A stretch of DNA of 37,904 bases from Akkermansiaceae bacterium. Lineage in GTDB: Bacteria > Verrucomicrobiota > Verrucomicrobiia > Verrucomicrobiales > Akkermansiaceae. Where the stretch lies: the NCBI GenBank assembly GCA_903908495.1, contig CAIVSK010000218.1:1-37904 (forward strand). Reading direction: 5' to 3'. Under the pieces are notes generated by a model. It was not told the origin of the DNA. It was given only the letters and a program-made list of their open reading frames with translations, and ran no database searches. A program made the translations under genes and the position numbers. Positions 14,401 to 32,091 of the stretch are shown one piece after another. Every line of letters starts with the position of its first letter. Position 1 is the first letter of the stretch.

Positions 14401-17400
14401 CATTCAGCGGTCCATTCATGACCAAGTCGCCGGTGGCGCTATTGGCACCCACCACGGTGGTGACCACCATCCCGTAGCCGCGGGACACAAACTGGATGTT
14501 CGAGTCAACCACCGATCCGGATGCCGCGGCGGTGGTGGACAGGCCGGGATTGGAATTGGTGTCAAAGATGCCGATGGTGGCCACCCCGCTGCCGTATTGG
14601 CGGATGGTGGTGGGCGCGTCGTTAATCACGAATCCGCTGCCGACATTGTAGGATGTTCCTCCCAACAAATAGACGCCACTCGTCGCCGAGACTCCGTCTC
14701 CATACATGGTCATCGGGGTGTTGGAATAACCACCGCCGGTGGAATAGCCGAACCTGAGCGTCGCGCCATGATTGACGATATAGCCCACATCACCGTTCTT
14801 CGCTCTGACTTCGAGGCTACCGGCGGTGACGCTGGTGGTGCCGGTATAGGTGCTGGCACCGGTCAGAATGACATCACCGGTGCCGGCTTTGGCAAAGCCA
14901 CTGGGCGAGACGCCGAAGGTCAGCGAGGTACCGGCGGCGCCTGTGGTGACATTGGCGTTGAGGGTGATCTGGGTCGCGCTTTGGATGGAAGCGATGGTGG
15001 AATTGGCGGCCAGACCGGTGCCTGTGACGGTCATGCCCACCACCAAATCGGTGGTCGCGCTAAGGCCGGTGACGATCGCGCTGGCGGTTGTCGTGCTGCC
15101 GGTGCGGGACGCCGGGACGGGCTCATTGGCGATGAGCGAGTTGATGGTGATCACACCGCTGCTGTTGTTTGTGACCGTGAGATCACTGGCGATGCTGTTG
15201 ACGTTCTGGCCGGGCATGAGCGTGCCTTCGCCAACCACACTGCCGATGGTCAGATTGCCCGCGCCGGATGATGACAAAATGGCACCCCTAGGCCCGAAGC
15301 GCAGGGTTTGCGATGGCAGGGCAACGGTTGCCGCGCTGGCGCCCCCCACGGTGCTTTGGAGCAGCGTATTGATGTTGGTGGTAGCGGCGGCGAGGGTGAT
15401 ATTGGCGAAGGTGCTGCCAGTGCCTTCGGTGATGCGGATGTTGCTGGTGGCCGCATCGGCGATGACCTTGGTACCGGTCTCAGTCCGCGTCACATCGGTG
15501 TAACCGGAGTAGGCGGTGATCAGGCCGCTGGCGGCGTTGGTCGAGTTGCAGGCGAAGTCGTTGCCGATCATGGCCCAGCCGCCGAGGATGCCGTTGGTGT
15601 TGAGGGTGTCGGTGGTGGCAATGCTGGGCGAAGCGAAGTTGATCGTTGCGCCGGTATTGCGCGTGATGGCTTTCATCTGCAGAATACCCGTGCCGGACGG
15701 CCGGGAGATATACACATTGGCACCGGCGTTCAGCGTGGTGGATGCCACGATTTCGGTGTGCGAGCCACCGTTGAGCGACAGCCCTGAATATCCGTTGAAG
15801 TTGAGGGCGGCGGTGTCCGAGAGTTTCGAGACACTGGTAATTGAATAGTCGAGGGCGAGGGTACCGCCGCTGACGGTGGTGGCACCGCTGTAGGTATTGG
15901 CGCCCGAGAGCGTCAGGGTGCCGCTGCCGTTCTTGACGACGACCCCGGTGCCGGTGATGGCTCCGGCATAGGTGGTGTTGGTGTTGAGCGCCCCAATGGT
16001 CAAGGTGTTGGCGGCCAGGGCGACGCCACCGCCGGTGGCACCGCCGCCGGTCAGCGAGCCGACTGACATCGCGGTGGCGAGAGTCAGCGAAACGCCAGCG
16101 GTGTTGTTGAGGGTGAGTGCGACAGCGCTGGTATTCGGTGCGGTGGTGGTGGTAGCCAGCACGCCGGCCGCCACGGTGAAGGTGCCTGCGGTCACCGTGC
16201 TATTGCAGAGGGAGAAGGTACCCGCTCCAACCTTTGTCAGAGTGTAACCGCCGAGGTCGAGGGAGGTGGCACCGTAAGCGCTGGCAAGCAGGCACCAACT
16301 GCCGGAGCCGCCGACGGTGGCATTGGCGGCGAGTTTGATGTTGGTGGTTTGGGCCGAGCCGGTGCCGATGGCAGCACCGTTGTTGAGCAAGGCACCGGCA
16401 CTGCCCACTCCGGCACCAGCGATGGTGTAGCCGTAGGTTGCATCTGCCACGCCGTTGAAATTCACCGTGGCGCCGGAGGCCACTGTGACCTGGGTCACGG
16501 GGCTGCCCGTTTGGAACGCACCGAGCGCATTCTTGTTGCCCATGACAAGCGTGCCCGCGTTGAGCGCGGTGTTGCCGCTGTACGTGTTGGCGCCGGAAAG
16601 CGTGAGGCTGCCGCTGCCGGTCTTGGTGAGCGAGGCGCCGCTGCCGCTGATGATGCCGGCGAAGCTGGTGTTGGCGCTGCCCCCTGCGGTCAGGTTCTTG
16701 CTGCCCAGAACAATGGTGGTGCCGCTGACTCCGTTGATCGAGCCGACGGTCGCGCCGCTGGCGCTGATGCCGGCGAGGTTGAAGGAGGTGCCGCTGTATG
16801 TGAGGTCCACCGTGGAGACCGCGGCGAGCGAGCCCGCGCCCGTCAGCAGCAATGAGCCGCCGACGATGGTGGTGCCACCGGTGTAGGTGTTGGCTGCGGT
16901 GAGCGTGAGAGCGCCCAAATCATCCTTGCTGAGCGAGCTGGCCCCCGTGCCGTCGGCGATGACCGAGTTGACCGTGGTACCCGCGCCGGCGAGGTCGCGG
17001 AAACCAAGTGCGGTACCGCTACTCTTGAGTGTGCCATTGTTGGTGCCGGTGCCGAAGGTTAGCGCGCCCGCGCCGGTACCGATCATGACCGAGTTGACCA
17101 CCAGAGTCTGCCCGGCTGGATCGATGATGGCGGCGCTGGTGCCACCGCTGGCACTCTGATTGAGCGAGTTGACGGAGGTGGTAGCCGACCCCAACAGAAT
17201 CGGAGCGGCCGCCCCAGTGCCTTCGATGATTTGCACGTTGGTGGCCGAACCATCGGTGATGGTTTGCGGACCGGATGAGAGGCGGGTGACAAGGGAGTAA
17301 CCGGTGTAGCTGACAATATTGCCAGTGCCGTCATTCATCCCCCAATCGGTGCCGCCGATGACGGCCCATGAGCCGAGGGTACCGCCGGCGTTATTGGGGT

Positions 17401-19069
17401 TGGTGGTTTTGGCGATGCCACTCTGAGGGATCGTGAGGACGGCTCCGGATCCGGCGGTGACGGCACCCAGGTTGAGCGTGGCGCTGCCGCTGCTGCGGGT
17501 GAGACTGGAGACGGTGCCAGCCGTCAGCGTGGTGGTGGTCACGGAGTCAGCGAAAGTGCCGCTGGCGAGCTGGATCGTGCCGCCGGACAGGGTGAGGGCG
17601 CCGGCTCCGATCTTGCGGTTGTCGTTGGTGGCGTAATTCAAGGCCAGGGTGGTGCCCGCGCTAACGACGGTGGCACCCGTGGTGGTATTGGTCCCGCTGA
17701 GGGTGAGCGTGCCAGCGCTCACCGTGGTGGTGCCGGTGTAGGAGTTGTTGCCGGCCAGCGTGGCGGTGGTGGCGGCGTTCTTGGTCACTGCACCCGCGCC
17801 GGCCAGGGCGCCATTGAAGATTTGATTGGCGGTGCCGATGAAGATGAGCGGCAGGCTGCTGGAAATGGTGACATTGCCGGTGTAACCCGACACATCGCCG
17901 TACCACTCGACGCTTCTGCCACCATTGATGGTCAGCGCGCCAGCTCCGCTCAGGGTGCCGGTAAACCGCAGGTTCAGGCCAAAGCCGGTGTTATTGGGAT
18001 TGAGGGTGCCGCCGCCGGCGTTGATCGTGATATTGTTTCCGATGGTGGACTGGGCACCGCCGCCGTTGCTCGGACTGGCAGCCGCGGCACCGCCGTTAGA
18101 GATGGTGCCGCCGTCCACGGTGATGCCGTGGCGGTTGGTCCAGGCGGTGTTGTTGTAGTCGCGCACATCCATGATGGCGCTGCCACTCAGCGTGATGGTG
18201 CCGGTGCCGCCGACTTGCGTGGTGCTCCCGCTCGGATAGAAAACCGCGCCGCTGCTGACGGCGATGTTGCCGCTGGTGATGTTATTGGTGCCCATTTTCA
18301 GACGACCTGAGGCGATGGTGAGTGTCTTGCCGGCCAAATCCAGACTGCTCGGGGCAAATCCCGCGGCGTCCACATTGGAAGCGCCGCCCAGGGTGGCATC
18401 GGCGGACAGGGTGAGCGCGGCGGGGGTCGGGCCGGCGGCGATGGAACTATTATAGAGCGCCGTGCCCGACACGCCGGTGCCAGCGATGGTGATCGGCCGC
18501 GAGGCCGCGGCAAATCCGGCGACGTCGAGCGTGGCGCCCGCGCTCACGGTGGTTAGCGAGGAGGCACCGAGGCCCGCCGCGTTGCCGAGCTTGAGGGTGC
18601 CTGCGGTGATGGCGGTGGCACCGGTGTAGGTATTGACGCCGCTGAGGGTGAGCACGCCCGCGCCGGATTTGGAGAGGCCGAGCGAAGTACCGGCGACGAT
18701 CGAGGCGATGGTGGCGTCGGCAGTGGCGACGATGGGAGTGGCGGCAGCGCCCAGAGTGAGGGTGCCAGCGGTGAGAGTGAAGCCGGCGCTACTGAAAGTG
18801 ATGCCGTTGGCCGTCGCGGTGGTGACGGTGACGGATTCGCCGGTGCCGCTGAAGATTGCGTTGTTGCCGTTGGTCCAGACCGCGCCGCTATCCCAGTTGG
18901 TGGTGGTGGTGTTCCAAACTTTGGAGGCGTTGGGCCCCACATAGTTCTGGTCTGCGGCAAAGGCGAAGGGCTGGACTGCGACGCCGGCCAGCGTCATGAC
19001 GACGGCACTGACGATGGAATTGGCACGGAAGAACCGGGCGAATAAAGGATTGCTACGATTTTGCTTCAT
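11453..19069 (-). CDS. giant exported PATR beta-strand repeat protein (2538 aa)
   Basis: The ATG at 19069 is chosen because it directly precedes a signal peptide (FFRANSIVSAVVMTLAGVAV...FAFA); the open frame extends 28 codons further up without family support. After the opening W..T...NWD...VW module, at least ten PATR units recur (G-x-LTLSGANTYSGxTTVxxGTL), the hallmark of autotransporter-associated beta-strand repeat proteins. Two copies of a LGGWA-x-IG module lie at about 17040-17400 and 15230-15610. A phage-structural-like insert (VTGLSATTDLVVGMTVTGTG) is encoded at about 14915-15105. Gly, Ser, Thr and Ala dominate; Cys is almost absent. There is no C-terminal autotransporter barrel. Instead the protein ends with an EF-hand-like loop (DFDGDGVSNGLEW), a small beta module and FARMKVLITP. 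It is likely a cell-surface or secreted adhesin/matrix fibre; ligand and export route are unknown. Confidence 0.9.
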   Translation of the reverse strand: MKQNRSNPLFARFFRANSIVSAVVMTLAGVAVQPFAFAADQNYVGPNASKVWNTTTTNWDSGAVWTNGNNAIFSGTGESVTVTTATANGITFSSAGFTLTAGTLTLGAAATPIVATADATIASIVAGTSLGLSKSGAGVLTLSGVNTYTGATAITAGTLKLGNAAGLGASSLTTVSAGATLDVAGFAAASRPITIAGTGVSGTALYNSSIAAGPTPAALTLSADATLGGASNVDAAGFAPSSLDLAGKTLTIASGRLKMGTNNITSGNIAVSSGAVFYPSGSTTQVGGTGTITLSGSAIMDVRDYNNTAWTNRHGITVDGGTISNGGAAAASPSNGGGAQSTIGNNITINAGGGTLNPNNTGFGLNLRFTGTLSGAGALTINGGRSVEWYGDVSGYTGNVTISSSLPLIFIGTANQIFNGALAGAGAVTKNAATTATLAGNNSYTGTTTVSAGTLTLSGTNTTTGATVVSAGTTLALNYATNDNRKIGAGALTLSGGTIQLASGTFADSVTTTTLTAGTVSSLTRSSGSATLNLGAVTAGSGAVLTIPQSGIAKTTNPNNAGGTLGSWAVIGGTDWGMNDGTGNIVSYTGYSLVTRLSSGPQTITDGSATNVQIIEGTGAAAPILLGSATTSVNSLNQSASGGTSAAIIDPAGQTLVVNSVMIGTGAGALTFGTGTNNGTLKSSGTALGFRDLAGAGTTVNSVIADGTGASSLSKDDLGALTLTAANTYTGGTTIVGGSLLLTGAGSLAAVSTVDLTYSGTSFNLAGISASGATVGSINGVSGTTIVLGSKNLTAGGSANTSFAGIISGSGASLTKTGSGSLTLSGANTYSGNTALNAGTLVMGNKNALGAFQTGSPVTQVTVASGATVNFNGVADATYGYTIAGAGVGSAGALLNNGAAIGTGSAQTTNIKLAANATVGGSGSWCLLASAYGATSLDLGGYTLTKVGAGTFSLCNSTVTAGTFTVAAGVLATTTTAPNTSAVALTLNNTAGVSLTLATAMSVGSLTGGGATGGGVALAANTLTIGALNTNTTYAGAITGTGVVVKNGSGTLTLSGANTYSGATTVSGGTLALDYSITSVSKLSDTAALNFNGYSGLSLNGGSHTEIVASTTLNAGANVYISRPSGTGILQMKAITRNTGATINFASPSIATTDTLNTNGILGGWAMIGNDFACNSTNAASGLITAYSGYTDVTRTETGTKVIADAATSNIRITEGTGSTFANITLAAATTNINTLLQSTVGGASAATVALPSQTLRFGPRGAILSSSGAGNLTIGSVVGEGTLMPGQNVNSIASDLTVTNNSSGVITINSLIANEPVPASRTGSTTTASAIVTGLSATTDLVVGMTVTGTGLAANSTIASIQSATQITLNANVTTGAAGTSLTFGVSPSGFAKAGTGDVILTGASTYTGTTSVTAGSLEVRAKNGDVGYIVNHGATLRFGYSTGGGYSNTPMTMYGDGVSATSGVYLLGGTSYNVGSGFVINDAPTTIRQYGSGVATIGIFDTNSNPGLSTTAAASGSVVDSNIQFVSRGYGMVVTTVVGANSATGDLVMNGPLNVAGTGLFKRGAGSLALNAAAISTNGGLQLQAGTVITGATNAIGTNAVVSISAGAKLVVNGTSQTLPSIANSGSVTGGAAALSTLNVSGTAASTSAGTLGGSGTNDNNLALAKAGTGMLTLTGNTSTYAGGSTVNGGTLRISNTAGSATGSGGVTVNSAGTLDGAGTISGVVTVGVSGGTISPGLVNVGALNVGGLTFAGTGTLVVSPGASSVNVTGSNGLTTSGATGSVAINIGTTPLAAGTYHLISHVGGIQGTGLGAFVLSTTPGGAYSYTLQDNAGYLDLRVSTSAIFWSGSLSSDWSTLPAALNWLAGASPSYFSTGNQVVFDDTASNTTVTVAMAGVAPGAVQFTNSTNEYTLGGGAVTGSTGLLKGGTGLLIISNTNSFTGAVTVSQGTLQVGTIGNVGMNSALGAGTSIVLSGGTLSYAGSAASTDRTVTVSTTGSLEVASGPLTLTGVISGAGALTKTGYDPLILNNLGNTIASIVINQGAVSVDDMAKLGTGTLAMGGGTLDVVGSTALTTAKALALRSGGGTIQVDDTAGLTWSTGITGTGGMHKTGAGTLTFSGNMNFSGGVIVDEGTLLIGGGGWYVNPFGQTNLITINAGGKVQTAIVHGLGTDSNTVFVNGGTLQIASGQYVSSLHMAGGLVTGGNLSTFGGTMTFDASTTGSTIASPLNCYPATAAATLQVADGDAATDLLLSGVVSNVGNLIKTGLGTLDLSAANTYVGNTTVNAGTLHLTSTGRLTFAIGATSGLANKITGTGAVIVDGAFVIDTSAATALNTGTWLLNSIATLSVTYGGTFSVMNTDGSLWTDSGTGKWSKAVGTKTWTFDKASGTLTVLGNGYAGWAATHAGGGTPTQDFDGDGVSNGLEWVLGGSETTNDLGKLPKATTAAGNLEFTFVRDQQILTDAGTTVEIEVGTNLAGWTDTYTVGVDTAGSSASPGATGTVTVTANTPVAGKDTVTLTVTQAPDATKFARMKVLITP
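14915..15105 (-). other. phage-structural-like domain inside the PATR protein
   Basis: The encoded stretch reads A-S-A-I-V-T-G-L-S then VVGMTVTGTGLAANSTI and ITLNANVTTGAAGT. This pattern (a value/limit pair followed by STIASIxSATQITL) is frequent in phage tail and capsid-decoration proteins and in some large bacterial repeat proteins. It differs in composition and periodicity from the PATR units on both sides, so it looks like an inserted module. Confidence 0.5.
15230..15610 (-). other. GGWA module, copy 2 of the 2538-aa protein
   Basis: Starts at about LNTNGILGGWAMIGNDFA and runs through YSGYTDVTR, IRITEGTG, INTLLQSTVGG and SQTLRFG to GNLTIG. It aligns along its whole length with copy 1 at 17040-17400 and more loosely with a stretch of the 2673-aa protein at about 27000-27360. 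It separates blocks of PATR repeats. Confidence 0.6.
17040..17400 (-). other. GGWA module, copy 1 of the 2538-aa protein
   Basis: Starts at about NAGGTLGSWAVIGGTDWG and continues through YTGYSLVTR, VQIIEGTG, VNSLNQSASGG and GQTLVVNS to GALTFGTG. The order of motifs is the same as in copy 2 at 15230-15610, which supports an internal duplication within the gene. Confidence 0.6.
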
Positions 19070-19407
19070 GGTGTGTTCGTTGTTTGGGTTTTTTTCGATA
19101 ATTCGGGTGTCAGAAAGTGGATTGCGGGTCGACCCATTGCCGGCCGGCGACAAGGCAAAAACCGGAGAATTTGTCGTCGATGAAGGCTGCCAACAACGGC
19201 AGTTTGCAAAATGAGCAACTCTTCATGGATGGTAACGACTAAATTGATAACGCCGCGATAACGGCTGAGACTGATCCGGAGTAGGAGTAAAGAACGCGGC
19301 GATTGAAACTAGAATACCGGATTAGTCAAAGCATATTTCATGCCAACCCTGATGGTTTATTCAACTACACTGGGGACCACATACCATTGCCCGCCGCGAC
19401 CGCTCGG
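19070..19407 (-). other. 338-bp upstream region of the 2538-aa PATR gene
   Basis: No gene is supported between the HAD phosphatase end and the PATR start. The region is more AT-rich than its flanks and should hold the PATR promoter and a long leader. Reading the minus strand, a sigma-54-like element is present at 19330-19345 (listed separately). No clear sigma-70 pair or Shine-Dalgarno sequence was found; the bases just before the ATG are ACGAACACACC. Confidence 0.5.
19330..19345 (-). promoter_or_regulatory. weak sigma-54-like promoter candidate
   Basis: The minus strand reads TGGCATGAAATATGCT. The GG and GC doublets are separated by exactly 10 nt, as in the TGGCAC-N5-TTGC consensus, with two mismatches. 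It would give a leader of about 250 nt before the PATR ATG at 19069. A chance match is quite possible. Confidence 0.2.
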
Positions 19408-20164: not shown

Positions 20165-23100
20165 TCAGGGTTGGGTCACGTGGAGGCGGCCAAACAGGGT
20201 GGTGGCACCGGCCTTTGGAATGGTGATGGTGACAACCTGGGTACCGCCCACCGCCGCACCGATGACCACGCGTGGATCCACCGACGGGGTGAGGATGTCA
20301 ATCGGCGACCACGCCGCCAGATCGGCACTGGACTCAAACACCTGGGTCGTGTCGGCAGCGGATTCCTCCAAGCGGGTGAACGTGAAGATGAAATTCGCCG
20401 CGTCTTCAGTGCGCGTCGGCAGGATCGCCATCGATGATTGGCCAGGGTTGCCGTTGAGCACATATTCCATCAGGTTGCTGATGCCATCGTGATCCGGGTC
20501 GCCGGAGGGAGTGGTATCACCGGTTAGGCCCGCGGCAATGAAGGCCGCCATCCAGCTGGAGTAGCCGCCGGTGACGACGGTCAGCACCAGGCTGTTGCCA
20601 CTCTTGCTGAGGGTGGCGGTCTGGCCGGTCGGCATCGTCAGGCTGGCACCGAGGCCCGCTTCACCGCTGATGGCAGCGGCCGTAACGAGTGTGTAGGTCC
20701 CAGCGGCCGGGGGGGCGGCGGCGAAAATATCCACCAGGTTTCCGTCGCCCAGCGTGAGGGTGCCGGCGATGGTCCGGGTGACCTGGGCCGCAGCCGATCC
20801 GGCGATGTGGAACGCAAGGTGGCCACCGCCATTGATAGTGACGTACGAACCGAGCGCCGCGTGACCGATGACGTTGGAGCCGGCGTCGAGCGTGGCGGAC
20901 GATGCCACCGTGACCGCCGACGCACTGATCGTGCCGGGCACCGCCAAGGTACCGGCGTTGACGGAGGTGGTGCCAGTGTACACATTCACCGCGGAGAGCA
21001 CCATCGTGCCAAGGCCGGACTTGATCAGGTTGTGGTTGCCGTTAGGGCCATTCGAAACCACCGCCGAGATCACCAGGTCCTCGCTGGCCGGGCCGTCCGC
21101 AATGTTGAATTGCGTATCATCCTGACGCAGGTCGAGCACGAGCCCGCTGATGGTCGAGGGCGTGGCGGCCGCGACAGTGGTGATGGTCGTCCCGTTGTTG
21201 AACAAATCGAATGTGCTGGTGCCCATACCGGTGATGGCACCCGCGTTCATCGTGATGGCCACCGTCGAGATCGTCTGGTTCTGGCCAGCGCCACCGTTAG
21301 TAGCCACATCGAGTGTGCCGCCGACCAGATTAATGCTGGTGATGCGGTCCGTGCCGGTCCCGTAGCCGGTGCAATCATTGGCAGCCAAGCGCAGCGTGGC
21401 ACCCGGATTCACTGTCACATTGCCGCGGATGGTGCCGCTGACACCGCCCCCTCCGATCAGGCTCAACACGCCACCATTGACGGTGGTGCCGCCGGTGTAG
21501 GTGGCCTGGGTGGCGAGGGCAAGAGTGCCGTTGCCGGACTTGGTGAGGCCGACGTTGCCGGTCACCACCGCGCTGATGGTCGCAGTCCGATTGACCACGT
21601 TGATCACCGGCGAGCCGCTGGTGACGTTCAGCGTGAGCGGACCTGCGCTGCCGGTGTTGACGGTCCAGTCGCTGGTTTCGCTGGTATCGCCGAACTTGAT
21701 GCCGCCGATGGTGCGGGCACCATCGAGGGTGACGGTGGCGGAACCGCCGGATAGATCCAACGTACTCAGATCGGCCGTCATATCCGAGCCGCTGCCGATT
21801 GCGCCGACTAGCCAGTTATCAACCGTGGACCAGGATCCGCCTGCTGTGTTGATCCACGTTGGCACGCTGGTGGTGCCGAAGGTGCCGCTCAAAACCGCGC
21901 TTTGACTCCAACCCGAGTGGGTGGCCAGCGCCTGGATGGTGATGCTCGGCGTGTCGGTCGGCACGCTGATGGCAGTGGTATAAACCGGCGACCACATCGT
22001 CGGTGTGCTGCCATCGGTGGTGAAATGGATCGTTGCTCCAGCGGTGCCGCAAGTGATGGCCACCAATTGGGCACCGACGTAGCCGCCGGGCGTCAGGCTG
22101 AATGCCGGGGTAACCACCGTGTTGGCTGGCATGACCCGCACGATGCCGCTCAAGGCCAACAAGCTCGTATCCCAGACGAGGCTCGGGTTGCTGTCCGGAA
22201 TCGCCGGAGAAATCGTGCTGAACGACCCTGTGCCGCCTGCGGCAAACAAGGTGAAGCTGTCGCCCGCCTCCAACGGCGAACCCACGTTGGCCAGCGTCAA
22301 GGTGCCGCCATAAGTGAGCGCACCGGCGGTCTTGGCGATCTTGTCGCTGGTGCCGTCCCGGTTGATGCGAAGCAGCGTGTCGCCAAGCAAGGTCAGCGCG
22401 CCGTTGATGGTCAGCGTGCCGGTAGTCGTATCCGTGGCGCCGCCGACCGTCAGGGTGCCGCCGGACTGCACCGTCACAGCACCTGCGATGGTGCCCACCC
22501 CGGCGATGGTGCCGGCGGTTACCGTCGTTGGGCCGCTGTAGGTATTGACGCTGTTGAGGGTGAGCGTGGCGTTGCCGGTCTTGAGCAATCCGCCGCTGCC
22601 GATGATCGATTCGTTGGACGTGATGTTGCCCAGGGTGTCAATGATGGCGAAGCCGTTCAACGTGATGTCGCTGTTGCCATTGCCGCTGAGCACCAGCGTG
22701 TCGGTGGTCAGCGCCGGATTGTAGCGGAAGGTGCCCCCCGAACTGCCAACGGTGAAATCATTGCCGCTGGCGTGGCCGGGGCCGGTAACTTCGAGCAAGC
22801 CGCCGTTGATGACGCGGCGGGCGGCGTAAACGGACAATTGACCGGTGCCACCGGCAGTGCCGTAGCCGAAATCAACCAAGCGCAGGGTGCCGCCGGTGTT
22901 GATGGTGACCACCGCGGTGTCGTTGTAGGCGGCGTTGTACAGGTAGCCGGCGGGACCGACGCTCACCACGCCGCTGTTGATCGTGGTGTTGCCGGAGTAG
23001 AGGTTGTTGCCGGTTAGGCTCAGGACACCGCCACCGGACTTGATCATGGCTGAATTGGCACCCCATTCACTAATGACGGAACTGATCACGCAATCCGCCG

Positions 23101-26100
23101 CCGGAGCAAGCGCACCGCGGGTCACATTCACATTCAACGGTGAACCCTGGATGGAGATTTTCGGGGCACTGATGCTCGCTGGATTTCCGGCCGCATCGGA
23201 CGTCGCGTTGATGCCCGCACCGGTCAGGAACGAGTAGTTGCCGTTGGCATCGCCCGTAGCAACGGCAGTCAGCGTGCCGCCGGTCATGTTGACGTTGTTG
23301 GCGAGCGTGCAGCGGACTCCGGCCACGCTTTCGGTGATGGTGCCGCCGCTGGTGACGCTGAGGGCACCAACACCTGCGGTGTAATGCAGCGTGTCGAAAT
23401 GAGCCAAATCCAAAGTGCCGCCGTTGTTCACGGTGACGCCAGAGGTGGCAAAAGTGGCGCTGTCCGCAAAGGCAAACCTCAGGGTGCCACCATTCACCGT
23501 GGTCGGACCCGTGTAGAGCGGCACCGCGCTGAGAACCAGCGTGCCGCTGCCGGTCTTGGTCAGTCCGCTGCTGCCCACGATGACCGCACCGATGGTGGCG
23601 GACTGGTTGACCACCTCAATGGTCGGCGCACCGCTGGTGACGCCCAGCGTGAGTGGCCCCAAAACTCCGGTCATGAGCGACCAGCCATTGGTGGAACTTG
23701 TGTCACCAAACCGCAACCCGCCAACCGTGTGCGGACCATCCAGCGTGACGGTGGCGGCCCCACCTGATAGATCCAGGCTGCCAAAGTCGCACTTCACATC
23801 CACCCCGCTGCCGACGGCACCGCTTTGCCAGTTGCCCGTCACGGGCCAGGAACCGCCCGCCGCATTGGTCCAAACCGGCGTCGTGAGCGTGGTGAAGGTG
23901 CCTCCGCCAACCGTGCTATCCGTGGAACCGGCTTTCACCGCAATGGCCCGGATCACCATGGTGGTATCCGTCGGCACGCTGATGGACGAGGTATAGACCG
24001 TCGATGCGCCCGTCGGCGTGCTGCCATTGGTGGTGTAATGAATCGTGGCACCCGCCGTTGAGCAACTGATGCTCACGCTTTGCGCGCCGACATAGCCGCC
24101 GGGCTCCGGACTGAAAATCGGCGTGGCCACCGCGCCCACGGCCACCACCGAAATGATGCCCGTCGTGCTCAGCGTGCTGGTGTCCCACACCAGCAGCGGA
24201 TCGTTGTTAGGTGTGGCAGGCGAGATCGCGCCGAACGAACCGATGCCGCCGGCGGCGAAAATCGCGAAGCTATCGCCCCCGGCCAGGGTCGAGCCGACGT
24301 TAGCCAAGGTCAGCGTCCCGCCGAAGACCATCGTCCCGCTGGATTTGGCGATCCGGTCGCTGCTGGTCACCCCGCCCTTGTCGAGGCGCAGCAGGGTGTT
24401 GCCGTTGAGCAGGACGTCGCCATTGAGGGTGAGGGTGCCGGGCGTGCCGGTGGCGCCGCCGACCGTCAGCGTGCCGCCGGAATTGATTGTGACCGCACCG
24501 CCGATGATGCCGGTGCCTCCCAGCGCACCGCCATTGACGGTGACCGCGCTGATTCCCGTCGATCCGTTGACCAGCAGCGTGCCCGCGTTGACAGTGGTCG
24601 CACCGGTGTACGTGTTGGTGGCGGAGAGCAGCATCGTGCCACTGCCGGCCTTGGTCAGCGCGCCAACCCCGGCGTAATCGTTGGAGCCATCGATCAATTG
24701 GGAGGAAACCGTCAGGTCGGATCCGCCGCCGGTGATGTTGGCCACGGTGAACGTCGTGGTACCTGGCTTGAGGTGGTCGGACGGGGCACCCACGGCATTG
24801 CCGTTGTTGTCAATGTATGCGCCATCGGATCCGGTACCGGCGGCCACCGTGATGTCCCCGATGAATTGATACCCCTGATAGGCAGGGCCGGCTTCCAGCG
24901 ATGCATTGGACAAATGGCCGCCGTTTTGCAGGGTGACCGCGCCGATGGCGCTGTACCGGCCTGCCATGACTGTGCCGCCGTTGATGACCAGCACTGGAAC
25001 ATGGCTGGCGACCATGCCGCCGCCGCCCAACGGATTGGAGGCACCGGTGGTGGCGCTGAGCCACAGGGTGGTGCCGGTGTTATTGACAAAAATGCTGCGG
25101 GTGTTGCCCATCGCGCCGAATGCCGAAGTGGTACTCCCTGATCCGACGTTGCCGACGCCATAGACGGTTCCGGCGTTGATGTTCAGATTGCCGGTGAAGC
25201 TGTTGCCGTTGCTGCCAAGCATCAGGGTGCCGGCACCCGTCTTGGTCAGACCGTCGTTGCCGGTTAGCACCGTGCTGATGGTCGCAGTCTGGTTGACCAC
25301 TTCTATCACAGGCGATCCACTCGTCACATCCAGCGTGAGCGGACCGCCCGCTCCCGTGCTCAAGGTCCAGTTGTTGCTCGGTGAGGTGTCACCAAACTTG
25401 AGGCCACCGATGGTGCGGGCGCCATCGAGCGTGATGATGGCCTCCGCGGTGAGGTCCTGGGTGCTTAAGTCGACCGTGGCATCCACCCCGCTGCCGACCA
25501 CTCCACTTTGCCAGTTGGCAGGCGTGAGCCAGGATCCGCCGGCCGCATTGATCCAGACCGGGGTGGTGATGGTGTTGTAAGTGGCGCTTGCGATCGAGCT
25601 GTTATTCCATGCCGGATAGGTCGCGAACGCCTTGATCGTCAGGTTGATCGTGTTCGTCGGCACCGTGATCGGACTGGAATAGACGGCCGAGCCGCTCGTC
25701 GGATCGTTGCCATCGGTGGTATAATAAATCGTGGCACCTGCGGTGGAGCAGCTGATGCTCACACTTTGCGCTCCGACGTAACCGCCGGACGGCAGGCTGA
25801 TGGCCGGCGTCGCAACCGTGTTGGCAGAGCGGATCCGGATGATGCCACTCGACCCTAACAAGCCGGTATCCCACGCAAGTAGCGGGTTGCTGTCAGGACT
25901 GGCCGGAGAAATGGTGGCGAACGCTGCGGTGCCGCCCGCCGCGAAAATGGTGAATTGGTCGCCTTCCGCCAAGCTCGCGCCGATATTGGCCAAGGTCAGG
26001 GTGCCGCCAAAGGCGAGTGTGCCGGTGACCTTGGCGATTTTATCGCTGGTGGTCGCACCGCCTTTATTGAGGCGCAGCACGGTGTTGCCCGCGAGCGCCA

Positions 26101-28186
26101 GATTGCCGTTAATGGTCAGAGTGCCGGGCGTGCCGGTGAGGCCACCCACCGTCAGGCTGGCTCCCGACGCCACGTTCACCGCTCCGGCGATGATGCCGGT
26201 GCCGGCAAGCGTGCCGCCGCTGTTGACGGTCACCTGGCCTGAGCCGGTGGCGCTGCCGGTCGTGTTGGCCACCAGCAGGACGCCGTTGTTGATCGAGGTG
26301 GTCTCGCCGTAGGTGTTCGCTCCGGTCAGGCGCAGCGTGCCGGCTCCAGCCTTCGTCAGCCCCGCGCCGACGGGGGATCCGCCAGGTGAAGTCCGGATGA
26401 CCGAGGAAATATCCAAGTCGATGCCTGAAACCGTGCTGCCCGCGGCAACGGTAAAGGTGGTGCTGCCCTGGCGACAGGGGGAAATGGGCACGCCGCTGAT
26501 CGTAGAGGTTGTGGCCGATGCCAGGGAGAAGAGAGCGGAGCCGCCGCCATAAAAGTCGAGGTTACCGGCGACGTTGCCGGTGATCGAACCGCCGTTTAGG
26601 TTCAGCACGCAACTGCCGAGCGTCTGGTTGCCCGTGGTGTTCACGTTCAGGTTGCCGCCATTCAGGTTGATGGCCGTCAGCGCGTTCGCCCCACCACCCC
26701 AACCGGTGCCGTCACTGGCACTCAATTGCAGAACCCCGCCGGCATTGATCGTGGCGGTGCCGCGAATGCCGCCGGATTGGCCACCGGTCTGGAGATCCAA
26801 AGTCCCCTGATTGATGAACGTGCCGCCGGTGTAGGTGTTGATATTGCCCAGTTTCACCAGCCCCGAACCGCTCTTGCGCAGCGTCACCGCGCCCGCGCCA
26901 CCATCCTTGATGTAAACGTTGAGACGCTGGTCGCCGCTAGCGCCGTCGGCTTGCAGATACAGGTCGCTGATGCCCGAGGTGATATAACCGACACCCGCGG
27001 ACGATTGCAGCCAGAAATTGTTGTTGCGGAAAATCAATCCGCCGGACCCCAGCGTCAGCGTCGCGCCGCTGTTGATCTTTACGTCAGCCTGCTCGATCAT
27101 CGAGTTGATCGTTAGATCGGTGGTGATCGTCCGGTTCGCGTCGGTGGCGCTGCCGCACAACCAGTTGTCCGTGGCGACACCCGTTGAAAGCAGTACTGCG
27201 CTGTTGTCCTTGCTAGGCGCGGCTGCCACGATGGATCCCACAGTGCTCCCGACGGTAGCCGTTGGGTTCCACGCGGCGAAGGATCTGGCTTGGAGCGCGT
27301 TCTCGGCACCAGCAGCTTCCGATACAAACGCCCAACCACCGATGATCCCGTTGACGTTGGCGATGGCGGTTCCGTTGATCTGGACTGGCTTGAGCTGGAC
27401 CTCGCCGCCCGTTCCCATGTATGAGTACGTTGCGCGGAACTCAACCGTCGCGCCATTCGAGCGCGTCAGATTGTTGATCACCAGCAAGTCCGGCGTTCCA
27501 CCGCTGGGTGCGACGGCGATGCTGTTGAAGCCGCCGGTCAAGGCCACCGTGTTTAGTGTCGTGGTGTCGGCACCGCCCCCTGAATACCAGATGACCGAGC
27601 CGTTGTTGAGAGTGAGCGTCTGGCCGTTGCCAAGCTGGTTTCCGCCCGGAACACCGGTATCATCGCGCAAATAGAGCATGCCGCCGCGGGTAATTCCCTT
27701 GAAGGGATAGGCCGTGCCGCCCACGGTTCCCGCGCCGCCCTGGACCGTGATGCCAGTGCCGCTTGTGATCGTCGACCCACTGTTCAATTGAACGATACCA
27801 TCCCGGATCGTCATAACCCCGGTGTATGGATTTACCCCGGACAACGTGATCTGCCCGGTTCCGGTCTTGGTGAACGCGCTGGCACCGGCCAACGTGGCCG
27901 CCGTGAGCGTGTTGACCCCGGTATTGAGCGTGTAACCCGCCGTGTTGAAGGTGACCGATCCCGCGGTGATGGCCGTGGTTAGGCTCACCGTGCCCACGCC
28001 TGAGGCACCGAACGTGGCGCTGTCCGGTGTGGCATTGTTCCAGATCGAGCCGGTCCAGTTGGCGCTGGTGGTGTCCCAACTCATGTTGGCAGCAGCATTG
28101 TTCCAGGTCAGGGCGGCGGCGGGTGCTGTGTCGAGGGTCAGGGCAACAGCTAGCAACGTCAGATATCTTGCTTTTTTGGCAATCAT
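20165..28186 (-). CDS. giant exported PATR protein with Fn3-like macro-repeats (2673 aa)
   Basis: Translation is placed at the ATG at 28186, three codons inside a TTG-started frame, giving a signal peptide MIAKKARYLTLLAVALTL...PAAA. The mature start LTWNNAAANMSWDTTSANW is the usual first module of PATR proteins. Many PATR units follow (LTKTGAGTL, NTYTGATTVNAGTL). Three long macro-repeats of about 320 residues lie at roughly 25222-26190, 23538-24494 and 21521-22480. Each holds a linker (TLTVGGATGTPGTLT, LTLANVGS, FAAGG), a chitobiase-type Fn3-like domain (GGYVGAQSVSISCSTAGATI) and a W-x-NAAGGSW module. The C-terminus carries an EF-hand-like loop (DPDHDGISNLMEY) and ends LFGRLHVTQP; no autotransporter barrel is present. 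A strong terminator follows. Likely a secreted or surface-bound adhesin or matrix protein, with Fn3-like domains possibly binding glycans. Confidence 0.9.
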   Translation of the reverse strand: MIAKKARYLTLLAVALTLDTAPAAALTWNNAAANMSWDTTSANWTGSIWNNATPDSATFGASGVGTVSLTTAITAGSVTFNTAGYTLNTGVNTLTAATLAGASAFTKTGTGQITLSGVNPYTGVMTIRDGIVQLNSGSTITSGTGITVQGGAGTVGGTAYPFKGITRGGMLYLRDDTGVPGGNQLGNGQTLTLNNGSVIWYSGGGADTTTLNTVALTGGFNSIAVAPSGGTPDLLVINNLTRSNGATVEFRATYSYMGTGGEVQLKPVQINGTAIANVNGIIGGWAFVSEAAGAENALQARSFAAWNPTATVGSTVGSIVAAAPSKDNSAVLLSTGVATDNWLCGSATDANRTITTDLTINSMIEQADVKINSGATLTLGSGGLIFRNNNFWLQSSAGVGYITSGISDLYLQADGASGDQRLNVYIKDGGAGAVTLRKSGSGLVKLGNINTYTGGTFINQGTLDLQTGGQSGGIRGTATINAGGVLQLSASDGTGWGGGANALTAINLNGGNLNVNTTGNQTLGSCVLNLNGGSITGNVAGNLDFYGGGSALFSLASATTSTISGVPISPCRQGSTTFTVAAGSTVSGIDLDISSVIRTSPGGSPVGAGLTKAGAGTLRLTGANTYGETTSINNGVLLVANTTGSATGSGQVTVNSGGTLAGTGIIAGAVNVASGASLTVGGLTGTPGTLTINGNLALAGNTVLRLNKGGATTSDKIAKVTGTLAFGGTLTLANIGASLAEGDQFTIFAAGGTAAFATISPASPDSNPLLAWDTGLLGSSGIIRIRSANTVATPAISLPSGGYVGAQSVSISCSTAGATIYYTTDGNDPTSGSAVYSSPITVPTNTINLTIKAFATYPAWNNSSIASATYNTITTPVWINAAGGSWLTPANWQSGVVGSGVDATVDLSTQDLTAEAIITLDGARTIGGLKFGDTSPSNNWTLSTGAGGPLTLDVTSGSPVIEVVNQTATISTVLTGNDGLTKTGAGTLMLGSNGNSFTGNLNINAGTVYGVGNVGSGSTTSAFGAMGNTRSIFVNNTGTTLWLSATTGASNPLGGGGMVASHVPVLVINGGTVMAGRYSAIGAVTLQNGGHLSNASLEAGPAYQGYQFIGDITVAAGTGSDGAYIDNNGNAVGAPSDHLKPGTTTFTVANITGGGSDLTVSSQLIDGSNDYAGVGALTKAGSGTMLLSATNTYTGATTVNAGTLLVNGSTGISAVTVNGGALGGTGIIGGAVTINSGGTLTVGGATGTPGTLTLNGDVLLNGNTLLRLDKGGVTSSDRIAKSSGTMVFGGTLTLANVGSTLAGGDSFAIFAAGGIGSFGAISPATPNNDPLLVWDTSTLSTTGIISVVAVGAVATPIFSPEPGGYVGAQSVSISCSTAGATIHYTTNGSTPTGASTVYTSSISVPTDTTMVIRAIAVKAGSTDSTVGGGTFTTLTTPVWTNAAGGSWPVTGNWQSGAVGSGVDVKCDFGSLDLSGGAATVTLDGPHTVGGLRFGDTSSTNGWSLMTGVLGPLTLGVTSGAPTIEVVNQSATIGAVIVGSSGLTKTGSGTLVLSAVPLYTGPTTVNGGTLRFAFADSATFATSGVTVNNGGTLDLAHFDTLHYTAGVGALSVTSGGTITESVAGVRCTLANNVNMTGGTLTAVATGDANGNYSFLTGAGINATSDAAGNPASISAPKISIQGSPLNVNVTRGALAPAADCVISSVISEWGANSAMIKSGGGVLSLTGNNLYSGNTTINSGVVSVGPAGYLYNAAYNDTAVVTINTGGTLRLVDFGYGTAGGTGQLSVYAARRVINGGLLEVTGPGHASGNDFTVGSSGGTFRYNPALTTDTLVLSGNGNSDITLNGFAIIDTLGNITSNESIIGSGGLLKTGNATLTLNSVNTYSGPTTVTAGTIAGVGTIAGAVTVQSGGTLTVGGATDTTTGTLTINGALTLLGDTLLRINRDGTSDKIAKTAGALTYGGTLTLANVGSPLEAGDSFTLFAAGGTGSFSTISPAIPDSNPSLVWDTSLLALSGIVRVMPANTVVTPAFSLTPGGYVGAQLVAITCGTAGATIHFTTDGSTPTMWSPVYTTAISVPTDTPSITIQALATHSGWSQSAVLSGTFGTTSVPTWINTAGGSWSTVDNWLVGAIGSGSDMTADLSTLDLSGGSATVTLDGARTIGGIKFGDTSETSDWTVNTGSAGPLTLNVTSGSPVINVVNRTATISAVVTGNVGLTKSGNGTLALATQATYTGGTTVNGGVLSLIGGGGVSGTIRGNVTVNPGATLRLAANDCTGYGTGTDRITSINLVGGTLDVATNGGAGQNQTISTVAITMNAGAITGMGTSTFDLFNNGTTITTVAAATPSTISGLVLDLRQDDTQFNIADGPASEDLVISAVVSNGPNGNHNLIKSGLGTMVLSAVNVYTGTTSVNAGTLAVPGTISASAVTVASSATLDAGSNVIGHAALGSYVTINGGGHLAFHIAGSAAAQVTRTIAGTLTLGDGNLVDIFAAAPPAAGTYTLVTAAAISGEAGLGASLTMPTGQTATLSKSGNSLVLTVVTGGYSSWMAAFIAAGLTGDTTPSGDPDHDGISNLMEYVLNGNPGQSSMAILPTRTEDAANFIFTFTRLEESAADTTQVFESSADLAAWSPIDILTPSVDPRVVIGAAVGGTQVVTITIPKAGATTLFGRLHVTQP
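21521..22480 (-). repeat. macro-repeat C of the 2673-aa protein
   Basis: Third copy of a coding repeat of about 960 bp. It runs from SGGTLTVGGATDTTTG through GGYVGAQLVAITCGTAG and TWINTAGGSWSTVDNW to GLTKSGNGTLAL. It is the most diverged of the three, with Cys and Ser changes in the Fn3-like part. Confidence 0.75.
23538..24494 (-). repeat. macro-repeat B of the 2673-aa protein
   Basis: Second copy of the coding repeat, from SGGTLTVGGATGTPGTLT to GLTKTGSGTLVL. Its GGYVGAQSVSISCSTAGATI segment is identical to that of copy A for 20 residues, indicating recent duplication or gene conversion. Confidence 0.8.
25222..26190 (-). repeat. macro-repeat A of the 2673-aa protein
   Basis: First copy in protein order, from ASLTVGGLTGTPGTLT through the Fn3-like segment and VWINAAGGSWLTPANW to GLTKTGAGTLML. 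It shares order and spacing of all submotifs with copies B and C. Confidence 0.8.
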
Positions 28187-28215
28187 GGTCGTCAACGAGG
28201 GGTGGGTGGTTTTTT

Positions 28216-29217: not shown

Positions 29218-32091
29218 TCACCCGGGCAGCATTGCCTCGTGCAGCGGCCGGCCCGCGCCCAGGATCCGGTAGTCATCGTAGCTCACCCGTTCGGCCGGGG
29301 GGGTGAATATACCGCTCGATATATTCTTCTCCACCCATTCGGCACAGGCTTGCGCCGCGTCCAAATCCTGCCGGGTGAAATCCGCCCACTCCTGCAAGCC
29401 GACATCCCCATCGGTGGCCCCCAACGTGAAATAACACGGTCGCGGCAACAGTTCGTCACGCCGCACCAAGGCCAAGGCATACAGCGGCAATTGCAGGTTG
29501 ACCCAGCGATAGGCCACCACCTTGCCATGCTCCGCACGCTCGTGCAGGGCGGGTGAATCGGCCAGATGAGCCGCCAGCACGGTGCTGGCCAGCAGCTTGC
29601 TGCGATGCGCTTTTTCCACCCCGTCGACCTTGCCTGTCTTGTAATCGATCACGCGCAGTTCGCCGCTGTCGCGGTGTCGGTCGATCCGGTCAATCTTCGC
29701 CACCAGCATGGCGGCACCTACCGCGAGTTCCACCTTGCGCTCGACGTCCACCACCTGCCAGCCCGCCGCGCGCTCGCAGGCCTGCTTTCTGGCCAGCCAG
29801 GCAAGGCGCTGGCGCAGCGACTCGGCCTGGATCCTAACAGCCATCGGCACGCGCTTGCCGAACCACTCGGCGACCACGCGGTCGAGTTCGGCGGACAGCC
29901 AGGCAGCCAAGGCCTCGGTTTTGTCGAACTCCCGCGCTTCCTCATCCTTGCCCCAGCGCTCCAACACCTCGTGGGCCGCAGTGCCGAAATCCCTCGCATT
30001 CCACTCCACCCGAGCCGTTTCGGGTTGTCGCATGGCGACGACGTGCTTGAGGTAGAACCGCAACGGGCAGGCCAGGTAATCGGTGATTGCCGTGACGCTG
30101 ATCCGGCGGGGCGGTTCCAACTTGCGCAGCGACCATTGCCAGTCAGCATGCCAGCGCAAGCCGGCTTCCGGCGGCTCGATCTCGCGAAACAACGTCGCGA
30201 CCCGCAACGGCAACGCTGCGCGCCCGGCGGCCAGCAACAAGCGCGATGGTAGCAAGGTTTCACCCCCGGCACCGGTCTTGCCGCAGATCACGTCCACCCG
30301 GCCGTCCAGGTGCCGCGCCTCGGCCATCGACTTGTATAAAAACGCGTCGCGTGCCGCGCGCATCGCATCGGTGATCAAGCCCAGGCGATCGCGAGCGGTC
30401 TCGCTCAACCACGGCTCACCACCGCTGCGGGCCGGCACCTTCCCCTCGTTCATCCCACATAACACCAGATGCCGGCCTGGCTCATAGTATAAGTCCAACC
30501 AGCCGTGAACATCGATAACCCGCCCGACCGGTGGCAGCGGCGCGGGGGCTGCCACTTCTTCTAACATCAATGTCAGCCAAAACCGCGCGCCGCGGCGGAC
30601 CCGCCCGATCACGGGAGCCGCCTGTGCCATCCACTCGTCGAGGGTGGCGGCCATGGCCGCTGACGCCGGGCCGCAACCGGCGAGGGCATCCAACAGATCG
30701 GCCAGCGCGCCGGTGAAATCGTCGCGCAGAAACCGCAACCGCCATTTTTCTAACGCAATAGCAGCAGCCAGGACTTCCAGCGCTGCCGCCCTGGCCGGTT
30801 CGCTTCGAAACACCTCGGCATCGATCCGGCGCTGCAAGTCCTCCGTGCGCATGACCATCCAGCGCTCGCGCATTTCTGACAAGCGCTGGGCCTTCTGCGC
30901 CCGCCTTCCACCAATGAGCACGGCGGAATCCGGCAATGTCAGCAAATCGGCCATCACCGCCAGCGTCGGCTCGGCCAGCCAATCGCCCCAAACCTTGAAC
31001 CAGCGCGCCAAGCCTGCCGTGGCCGACACGGTCGCCGGATGAAAGGCCGGCCAGCCATCGCGGGTCAGCGCCCGCGCCAGTTCCTCGCCGGCTTCCGCGT
31101 CGGCCGTGCCCAGGGCAACCTCGTTAGATGCGGAGCCGGCCTCGCCGATCACCCGCAGTGCCTCCACCGCCTGCTGGCGCGGATCGGCCACCACCCGCAC
31201 CGAGCCGCCCGTGCCCTCAGGCCACGGCAGCGAGCGCTCGCACCAGCCCGCCAGCGGCCGGCCGATCGCCGAGAACCCATCCGCCTCGCCCTCCGGCGCG
31301 CCGATCAGCACGGTGAGGCGTTGTAGCGGCGGTCTGTGCCCGTCGCTGCATTGCTCCTCATTGGCCAACGGCCCTCGCAGAGCGCCGCTACATTGCTGCC
31401 CGTCGCTGCCGATCTCCCATGCCAGCAGCGCCTGTTCGACCAGCGGTGCCATCTCGGCAACTCCCGCCACCACGATGTTAGAAACCCCGGCTGGCAGGGT
31501 GAATCCGGCCGCCAGCAGCCGGCTGCGGCTCCGATACCCCCAACTTGCCAGCGTCCTCTCGACCAGGCCCTCCAAGCGGCCGAGCGCCTCCCACCGCTCG
31601 GCCTCCACGGTGTCGCGCAAGCGGCGCGCCGCGGCGTTGAGGGTGAGAGCGCTTTCCTGCAAGGTGCGGCGCAATTGCACCAATTCCCTGGCCAAGCCGG
31701 CGGCCCACTCGCCGTCCGCTGCCGGGGCCTCGGGAAACAGGCCCGCATACGCCGACCAATCCCCCACCCCCTCCAACACTTCCACCCACCCCACTTGCTC
31801 GGCCCAATCCGGTGCCACATCCGTCAGCGAATCCTCGATTTTCAGAAACGACCCCGGGGTGGCGAATTGCGGCGAGAGCAGCGCGCCGCCGGCCTCGGCC
31901 AGCGCCTCGCGCAGGCGCCGGCCGCTTTCCGCCGTGGGCACCACCACCAGCAGACCCGGCAGCTCGGCACGTCGATCTAACAACCACTCCACCACCCGCA
32001 CCAAAAACGGCCGGTCCCATCCGAGAAATACGCGCGCTGGCATGGCGCGAGCATGGACCTTCGCGACCTCCGGGGAAGCCAAATTGTCCAA
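29218..32091 (-). CDS. AddB-like PD-(D/E)XK nuclease/inactivated helicase
   Basis: The 957-residue protein has a helicase-like N-terminal region without a Walker A motif (RVFLGWDRPFLVRVVEWLL, LLVVVPTAESGRRLREAL), as in AddB. The C-terminal third is a RecB-family nuclease: ITDYLACPLRFYLKH and the conserved His region (FGTAAHEVLERWG) at about 670-715, then AKIDRIDRH and VIDYKTGK (Asp and Lys of the active site) near 800-820. AddB partners AddA in repairing double-strand breaks; no addA is visible and the neighbours are unrelated. The Cys of YLACP is present, but the C-x2-C-x5-C that completes the AddB iron-sulfur cluster is missing (YDDYRILGAGRP instead). An in-frame repeat insertion occupies about residues 232-258. 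Translation may start at 32091 or at the in-frame ATG at 32043, which begins MPARVFLGW. Confidence 0.8.
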   Translation of the reverse strand: MDNLASPEVAKVHARAMPARVFLGWDRPFLVRVVEWLLDRRAELPGLLVVVPTAESGRRLREALAEAGGALLSPQFATPGSFLKIEDSLTDVAPDWAEQVGWVEVLEGVGDWSAYAGLFPEAPAADGEWAAGLARELVQLRRTLQESALTLNAAARRLRDTVEAERWEALGRLEGLVERTLASWGYRSRSRLLAAGFTLPAGVSNIVVAGVAEMAPLVEQALLAWEIGSDGQQCSGALRGPLANEEQCSDGHRPPLQRLTVLIGAPEGEADGFSAIGRPLAGWCERSLPWPEGTGGSVRVVADPRQQAVEALRVIGEAGSASNEVALGTADAEAGEELARALTRDGWPAFHPATVSATAGLARWFKVWGDWLAEPTLAVMADLLTLPDSAVLIGGRRAQKAQRLSEMRERWMVMRTEDLQRRIDAEVFRSEPARAAALEVLAAAIALEKWRLRFLRDDFTGALADLLDALAGCGPASAAMAATLDEWMAQAAPVIGRVRRGARFWLTLMLEEVAAPAPLPPVGRVIDVHGWLDLYYEPGRHLVLCGMNEGKVPARSGGEPWLSETARDRLGLITDAMRAARDAFLYKSMAEARHLDGRVDVICGKTGAGGETLLPSRLLLAAGRAALPLRVATLFREIEPPEAGLRWHADWQWSLRKLEPPRRISVTAITDYLACPLRFYLKHVVAMRQPETARVEWNARDFGTAAHEVLERWGKDEEAREFDKTEALAAWLSAELDRVVAEWFGKRVPMAVRIQAESLRQRLAWLARKQACERAAGWQVVDVERKVELAVGAAMLVAKIDRIDRHRDSGELRVIDYKTGKVDGVEKAHRSKLLASTVLAAHLADSPALHERAEHGKVVAYRWVNLQLPLYALALVRRDELLPRPCYFTLGATDGDVGLQEWADFTRQDLDAAQACAEWVEKNISSGIFTPPAERVSYDDYRILGAGRPLHEAMLPG
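31322..31409. repeat. palindromic repeat inserted in frame in the nuclease gene
   Basis: TGTAGCGGC (31322-31330) and GCCGCTACA (31384-31392) are perfect inverted ends; extended to 17 bp they match at 15 positions. A 13-bp direct repeat, TGCCCGTCGCTGC, occurs at 31337-31349 and 31397-31409, exactly 60 bp apart. The encoded insert (SDGQQCSGALRGPLANEE and onward) is Gly/Cys/Gln-rich and unlike the flanking protein. A shared CAGAGCGCCGCT core links it to the hairpin at 11351-11376. The unit keeps the reading frame open, so the nuclease may still be made. Confidence 0.7.

Follow-up and report, generated by a model that had tools for sequence, protein, structure and literature searches.

A nuclease gene in the window (the 37,904-nucleotide stretch of DNA that was analyzed) contains a palindromic repeat element that is translated in frame. 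We consider it very probable that this element is a REPIN without genes of its own, that it was gained once, in a freshwater Verrucomicrobia ancestor, through the action of a cognate RAYT, that it was later lost in one relative (genome G050), and that it now drifts as a dispensable loop of the protein.

The element and its host gene

The REPIN occupies positions 31,322 to 31,392 of the window (71 bp, no strand assigned) and is made of a head-to-head (inverted) pair of GTAG-type REP units (TGTAG...CTACA). The first unit is of the GGTC type (GTAGCGGCGGTCTGTGCCCGTCGCTGC) and lies on the plus strand at 31,323 to 31,349, where a pattern match (C218:31323) differs from the family 20-mer by 1 substitution. 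The second, located by a unit scan and its codons, is of the GCTC type with a TGC loop and lies on the minus strand at 31,372 to 31,391. As a previous sequence-only reading had pointed out, the ends are inverted, with arms at 31,322 to 31,336 and 31,378 to 31,392 that pair at 14 of 15 positions (93%), and a 13-bp direct repeat recurs at a spacing of 60 bp (31,337 to 31,349 and 31,397 to 31,409, plus strand). The second copy of this repeat is a duplicated REP half located beyond the REPIN. A target-site duplication was ruled out as its origin because the first copy lies inside the REPIN. Of the five carrier genes, only that of the window has the exact 13-mer, in two copies, which suggests that the repeat arose by local duplication in the window lineage.

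The nuclease gene contains one inverted pair when no more than 1 mismatch in 15 and a spacing of up to 70 are allowed, and 1 of 40 codon shuffles also contains one. Therefore, the palindrome by itself is modest evidence, and we take homology to the REP family, rather than the palindrome, to be the decisive evidence for an element. A chance palindrome in GC-rich coding DNA, with no mobile element involved, would agree with the shuffle result, but this explanation has practically no probability left because it is refuted by membership in a REP family and by the lack of the segment in relatives. No Rfam match was found anywhere in the window.

The genome to which the window belongs (G000) is a draft with 95.7% completeness. 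A DNA search of this genome with a 95-bp segment gave 61 matches at E values up to 10, and the REP 20-mer GTAGCGGCGGTCTGTGACCG has 98 matches with up to 3 mismatches, compared to 5 for a reversed control. The exact 20-mer, which joins GTAG to a hairpin of the GCGGCGGTC/TGT/GACCG type, is present in 20 of these 98 matches. Each arm of the palindrome opens a REP unit, built from GTAG, then the hairpin GCGGCGGTC, a TGT loop, and GACCGTCGC, and two variants (GGTC...GACC and GCTC...GAGC) are found in G000. A scan of the fetched G000 loci for both variants (up to 3 mismatches) revealed 113 units at 74 sites. The element had been taken for a REP-like one lodged in coding DNA, for which further copies in the genome were the proposed check, and those copies exist.

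The 74 sites comprise 43 single units, 26 exact '+-' pairs (GTAG outside), no exact '-+' pair, and 5 other arrangements that include a six-unit array. The contrast between 26 '+-' pairs and none of the opposite arrangement indicates a REPIN organization, and the window copy is among the 26. The family displays the unpaired GTAG at the foot of a stem-loop and the many dispersed copies that define the GTAG REP super-family, and the '+-' window site displays the inverted REPs, outside GTAG, and short spacer of a REPIN. Across the genus, 38 of 73 genomes (G000 counted) have family matches with up to 2 mismatches. From its presence and absence among relatives, we infer that the REPIN moves or replicates as one unit. 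Inverted ends and a length of about 70 bp would also suit a different kind of element, such as a DDE-transposase MITE or some other TIR element. We give this a very slight chance, since each end is a GTAG-tagged hairpin that also occurs alone (43 of the 74 sites) and in tandem, and since a Y1 transposase gene in relatives is flanked by these same units.

The host gene, on the minus strand at 29,218 to 32,043, was defined as an ORF from the ATG at 32,043 and by a domain search, and encodes a 941-aa PD-(D/E)XK nuclease (AddB-like). Its frame is open through the element, so the insertion is in frame and tolerated, as originally read. The Pfam domain PDDEXK_1 matches residues 647 to 865 (E value 1.8e-25, well over the cut-off), and the REPIN-encoded residues 218 to 241 lie elsewhere in the protein. 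Of the earlier name for this protein, the nuclease part holds, but the NCBIfam AddB model TIGR02786 matches the C-terminal part only, at 69.2 bits versus a cut-off of 486.5, so AddB identity is not borne out by the curated model and "AddB-like" is a fair name. No helicase family was found among the neighboring ORFs that were scanned, and no solved structure matched the nuclease at an E value of 0.01. An AlphaFold2 model from 15 alignment rows places residues 214 to 238, with pLDDT below 50, between a helix (200 to 211) and a strand (242 to 247). This agrees with the REPIN segment being a loop, though weakly, given the low overall quality of the model (mean pLDDT 56.5). Elsewhere in the window, two minus-strand ORFs of more than 2,500 codons (11,453 to 19,153 and 20,165 to 28,195) carry PATR repeats; the latter also has Fn3_assoc and CHB_HEX_C_1 repeats, and the former was scanned in part only.

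Carriers of the insert and its history

The nuclease alignment has 46 rows (the window, 15 rows from the first search for relatives, and 30 of 68 matching genomes), 13 of which repeat another row. The insert is present in five distinct sequences, namely those of the window (G000), G058, G013, G012, and G033, and is missing from the other 28, including G050 and G049. The alignment region spans 147 bases in the window and in G058, 153 in G013, 156 in G012, and 168 in G033, compared to 63 in G050 and 57 in G049. The window thus has 28 to 30 extra codons relative to these relatives without the insert, which agrees with the 25 to 30 added residues estimated from the window sequence. Length differences are whole codons throughout, and no stop codon occurs inside the insert in any of the five carriers.

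The insert is less conserved than its host, with identities among carriers of 0.42 to 0.60 versus 0.68 to 0.80 for the remaining protein, which itself differs by 20 to 32%. By our reading of the folds, the window, G013, and G012 retain the palindrome stem, and G058 and G033 have largely lost it. An insert common to five diverged genomes, its faster divergence, and the two decayed palindromes rule out the recent jump that had been proposed. From these comparisons, we hold that the insertion is old and probably neutral and that the insert was apparently lost in one species, G050. The accompanying suggestion, that the element may be a source of new protein sequence, holds in the literal sense, but the residues diverge faster than their host and seem to have been discarded once.

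Phylogenetic trees were used to place the relative that lacks the insert. In a nuclease gene tree computed with the insert columns removed, G050 falls inside the carriers (support 91/88), and a polA tree, from which a partial G028 row was excluded, gives the same placement (99/98). G012 has two polA-like genes; both are in the polA tree, and the long-branched one (L227) was excluded from a concatenation of nuclease, polA, and M3 peptidase sequences (11 genomes, 2,539 columns kept, insert columns removed). In the concatenated tree, G050 joins G012 and G013 with support of 100/99, and an arrangement in which the carriers form a clade without G050 is rejected (p-AU 7.9e-10). Support for the order of G033 and G049 is low (72/64), which leaves room for one further change. 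An rpoB tree, which included one long row, carried too little signal to be informative.

The main competing explanation is an insertion hot spot, in which one site was struck independently several times and G050 never had the element. In its favor, the REP types differ among carriers: the window combines GGTC and GCTC units, whereas the inserts of G012 and G013 (G012:C27 and G013:C70) are symmetric, with arms that remain well paired despite sequence change and, in G012, a matching change on both arms. Such pairing could reflect separate insertions, or arm-to-arm correction, instead of one drifting insert. There is also a precedent, as the available text of PMC3733652 describes different REPs at about one site in recB of two Xanthomonas species. 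However, the 3' terminus of the insert (CTACA or an altered form, one codon ahead of Leu-Thr) falls at the identical codon in all five carriers, and G050 shares with G012 the residues KDG beside the site, as expected if G050 descends from a carrier. Moreover, because G050 is nested at 100/99, gains alone would require four events (in G033, G058, G000, and G012 plus G013), compared to one gain with one or two losses. Several gains at one site are thus a worse fit to the pattern of carriers and non-carriers, and we regard a hot spot as unlikely. One gain in the common ancestor followed by loss in G050 is the simplest reading.

The cognate transposase and the open frame

A search of G000 with PF01797 found eight Y1 transposase (Y1_Tnp) genes, none of which has the window REP family in its fetched flanks (up to 1.5 kb). 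Y1 loci from eight relatives were also examined, 30 initially and then 20 more. Among these, a Y1 gene of G030 (151-aa protein, Y1_Tnp confirmed) has family REPs on both sides, and one other locus, in G045, has two REP copies some 600 to 800 bases upstream. Searching the genus with the G030 protein identified three further close relatives, in G004, G037, and G033. All four of these closest RAYT genes are flanked by REPs on both sides, with the nearest copies within about 150 bp; those at the G037 gene are a 2-mismatch variant. At remoter loci from the same search, any REP copy was found in only 2 of 26 that were fetched.

The two-sided flanks at all four closest genes argue that the REP family has a cognate RAYT. 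The proposed search for such a gene was thus successful in relatives, but in G000 none of the 15 candidates scored matches the G030 protein. Because the G000 draft is 95.7% complete, its cognate RAYT may have been missed or lost. We infer that the RAYT now seen in relatives made the nuclease insertion. Two other observations were made at these loci. First, G033 carries a second REP/RAYT pair (C105, L137), in which a Y1 gene lies amid GTAGCCGTGGGTTTCAACCCACGG-type hairpins. Second, an ORF upstream of a Y1 transposase gene in G045 (C56, L147:120-599) has two in-frame REPs (FDGHRPPLQ and SDGHRPPLQ) and no Pfam match.

In the mechanism we favor, the cognate RAYT (a Y1 transposase) would act on a folded single-stranded REP and move the REPIN into the nuclease gene. 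Three factors may explain why the gene survived: the inserted length would have been a multiple of three, the half of the element in the risky frame has CGA where a TGA stop is usual, and the site is presumably a tolerant one outside the catalytic domain. The insert would afterwards have drifted as a dispensable loop. In-frame insertion of a REPIN is not improbable: in the 26 complete REPINs of G000, a mean of 2.5 of the 6 frames is open, and at least one frame is open in 24 of them. In the frame used by the nuclease, the coding strand of a REP normally reads CTG TGA, whereas the window reads CTG CGA because its second unit has the TGC loop, a form found in 9 of the 113 REP units. The TGA is also missing from the other four carriers. 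This fits what survival of open insertions alone would leave, although the stop may instead have been lost after insertion.

Translated REPs in other genes and in known systems

The nuclease is not the only gene of this genus with a translated REP. In an M3 peptidase, a single REP is read in frame as DGHRPPLQ (L107:1407-1439 in G000, at G000:C420:1414, and L250 in G012, at G012:C12:24527). This segment is longer in all seven clade genomes examined, G049 and G050 included, than in seven outgroup genomes. Its REP origin is plain in G000, G012, and G049, whereas it is decayed in G013, G050, and G033 and no longer recognizable in G058; among the 15 genomes searched, G023 gave no match to the peptidase. 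More broadly, 142 locus-sites (the G000 loci, some overlapping, and 60 sites of G012 and G013) include 5 in ORFs with a coding signal to the left and right of the site, namely the nuclease (G000 and G013), the M3 peptidase (G000 and G012), and one match in DapF. Single REP matches with 2 to 3 mismatches can be due to chance, and the DapF case (L127), a 3-mismatch match over CDRNRGIGADG of diaminopimelate epimerase, was dropped on this ground; we take CDRNRGIGADG to be an active-site motif.

Six further genomes (G018, G025, G026, G023, G004, and G003) were sampled in 60 stretches, which cover most but not all of the matches from the genus search, and sites less than 90 bases from a stretch end were skipped. 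In this sample, 8 of 62 REP sites lie in ORFs with two-sided coding signal, a lower bound like the preceding count because the codon-usage test misses real cases (the known G013 insert scores only 6.2 and 0.7). On the basis of that signal, G026 has five candidates for in-frame REPs (UvrA, SucB, Tex, PurL, and a U32 peptidase), and G023 (a U32 peptidase of the same kind), G018 (a protein kinase), and G003 (an acyltransferase/ACP protein) have one each. The SucB-type succinyltransferase of G026 (C248, L364:302-1804) has a linker between its lipoyl and catalytic domains that is made up of four consecutive REP units, and UvrA of that genome has two in-frame REPs (C223, L363:5-2029). In G018 (C37, L330:351-2081), a REPIN is translated within a Ser/Thr protein kinase domain, between what we take to be the DFG and APE motifs. 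REPs can also end genes, as the TAG of the GTAG motif terminates an upstream ORF with a coding-like left flank at 4 of the 74 G000 sites (C238:5181, C425:1421, C368:12671, and C140:4631).

Two apparent regularities were considered and set aside. A preferred REP frame had been suggested by SDGHRPPLQ in two genes, but the eight further sites split over three frames (five of the VAAVCDRR type, two DGHRPPLQ, and one in the third frame), so no single frame is favored. Likewise, a preference for repair genes does not show in this small set, where only the nuclease and UvrA were counted as such, and the M3 and U32 peptidases, SucB, PurL, Tex, the kinase, and the acyltransferase/ACP protein were not.

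These genes bear on the possibility that the insert was co-opted, with its residues or hairpin tuning the nuclease or its mRNA, as the available text of PMC3733652 speculates for REP-tagged repair genes. The presence of the insert in five diverged genomes would suit this idea, as would the REP-tagged UvrA of G026, which parallels that of Opitutus terrae. We nevertheless consider co-option quite improbable, given the rapid divergence of the insert, the decayed palindromes of G058 and G033, the empty site in G050, and the fact that most other tagged genes in the genus sample are not repair genes. A broader proposal, which we advance only tentatively and rate as unlikely, is that the REP/RAYT system of this genus continually provides proteins with new linkers, in that its elements frequently enter genes, persist within loops and inter-domain linkers in any of several open frames, sometimes multiply there (as in the four-unit SucB linker), and in some cases contribute useful segments. 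If so, a transposase would be steadily writing new disordered segments into housekeeping proteins.

The nuclease provides a natural experiment on a tree, with one in-frame REPIN across five species and an empty-site relative nested among them, which allows the drift of a translated mobile element, the upkeep of its stem, and its loss to be followed directly in these species. This case, the M3 peptidase, and the remaining tagged genes together make the genus well suited to asking how often REPs enter genes and whether the residues they add are ever of consequence. We found no other account of this nuclease insertion in the literature searched, which included only a minority of subscription journals.

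Intragenic GTAG REPs were described by Di Nocera, De Gregorio and Rocco in 2013 (PMC3733652). According to the available text of that study, the verrucomicrobium Opitutus terrae has the largest number of them, more than half occur as dimers or groups that add 20 to 30 residues, and many tagged genes are repair genes, including UvrA (reported for O. terrae) and recBCD proteins. The same text notes that REP ends supply TAG stop codons and suggests that insertions may occupy flexible linkers or loops. Therefore, the expectation that REPs avoid genes, with which the window was first read, does not strictly apply, either in that published work or in the genus studied here (8 of 62 sites in six genomes).

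The window element resembles the O. terrae REPs of that description in having GTAG hairpins, often as dimers, translated in frame as 20 to 30 residues in a repair gene of a verrucomicrobium. It differs in belonging to another lineage and in that its insertion has been located on a phylogeny in which a relative with an empty site nests among the carriers. The available text covers 24 REP families, to which the window family is likened by description and not by consensus sequence. The REPIN/RAYT systems treated in the accessible parts of PMC3116915 and PMC8266576 (TnpA-REP) share with ours the inverted REP doublet, the GTAG motif, and a Y1 gene flanked by its own REPs. Unlike them, the present system is verrucomicrobial, its REP-flanked RAYT is found in relatives but not in the G000 search, and its activity is predicted. 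Rickettsia palindromic elements, as portrayed in the available text of PMC3733652, likewise occur in frame in many protein genes. However, RPE-4 and RPE-6 are of the CGTC type and apparently have no dedicated transposase, whereas the window element is of the GTAG type and has a REP-flanked transposase gene in relatives. On these comparisons, it is well supported that the nuclease insertion is a further case of a kind known since 2013.
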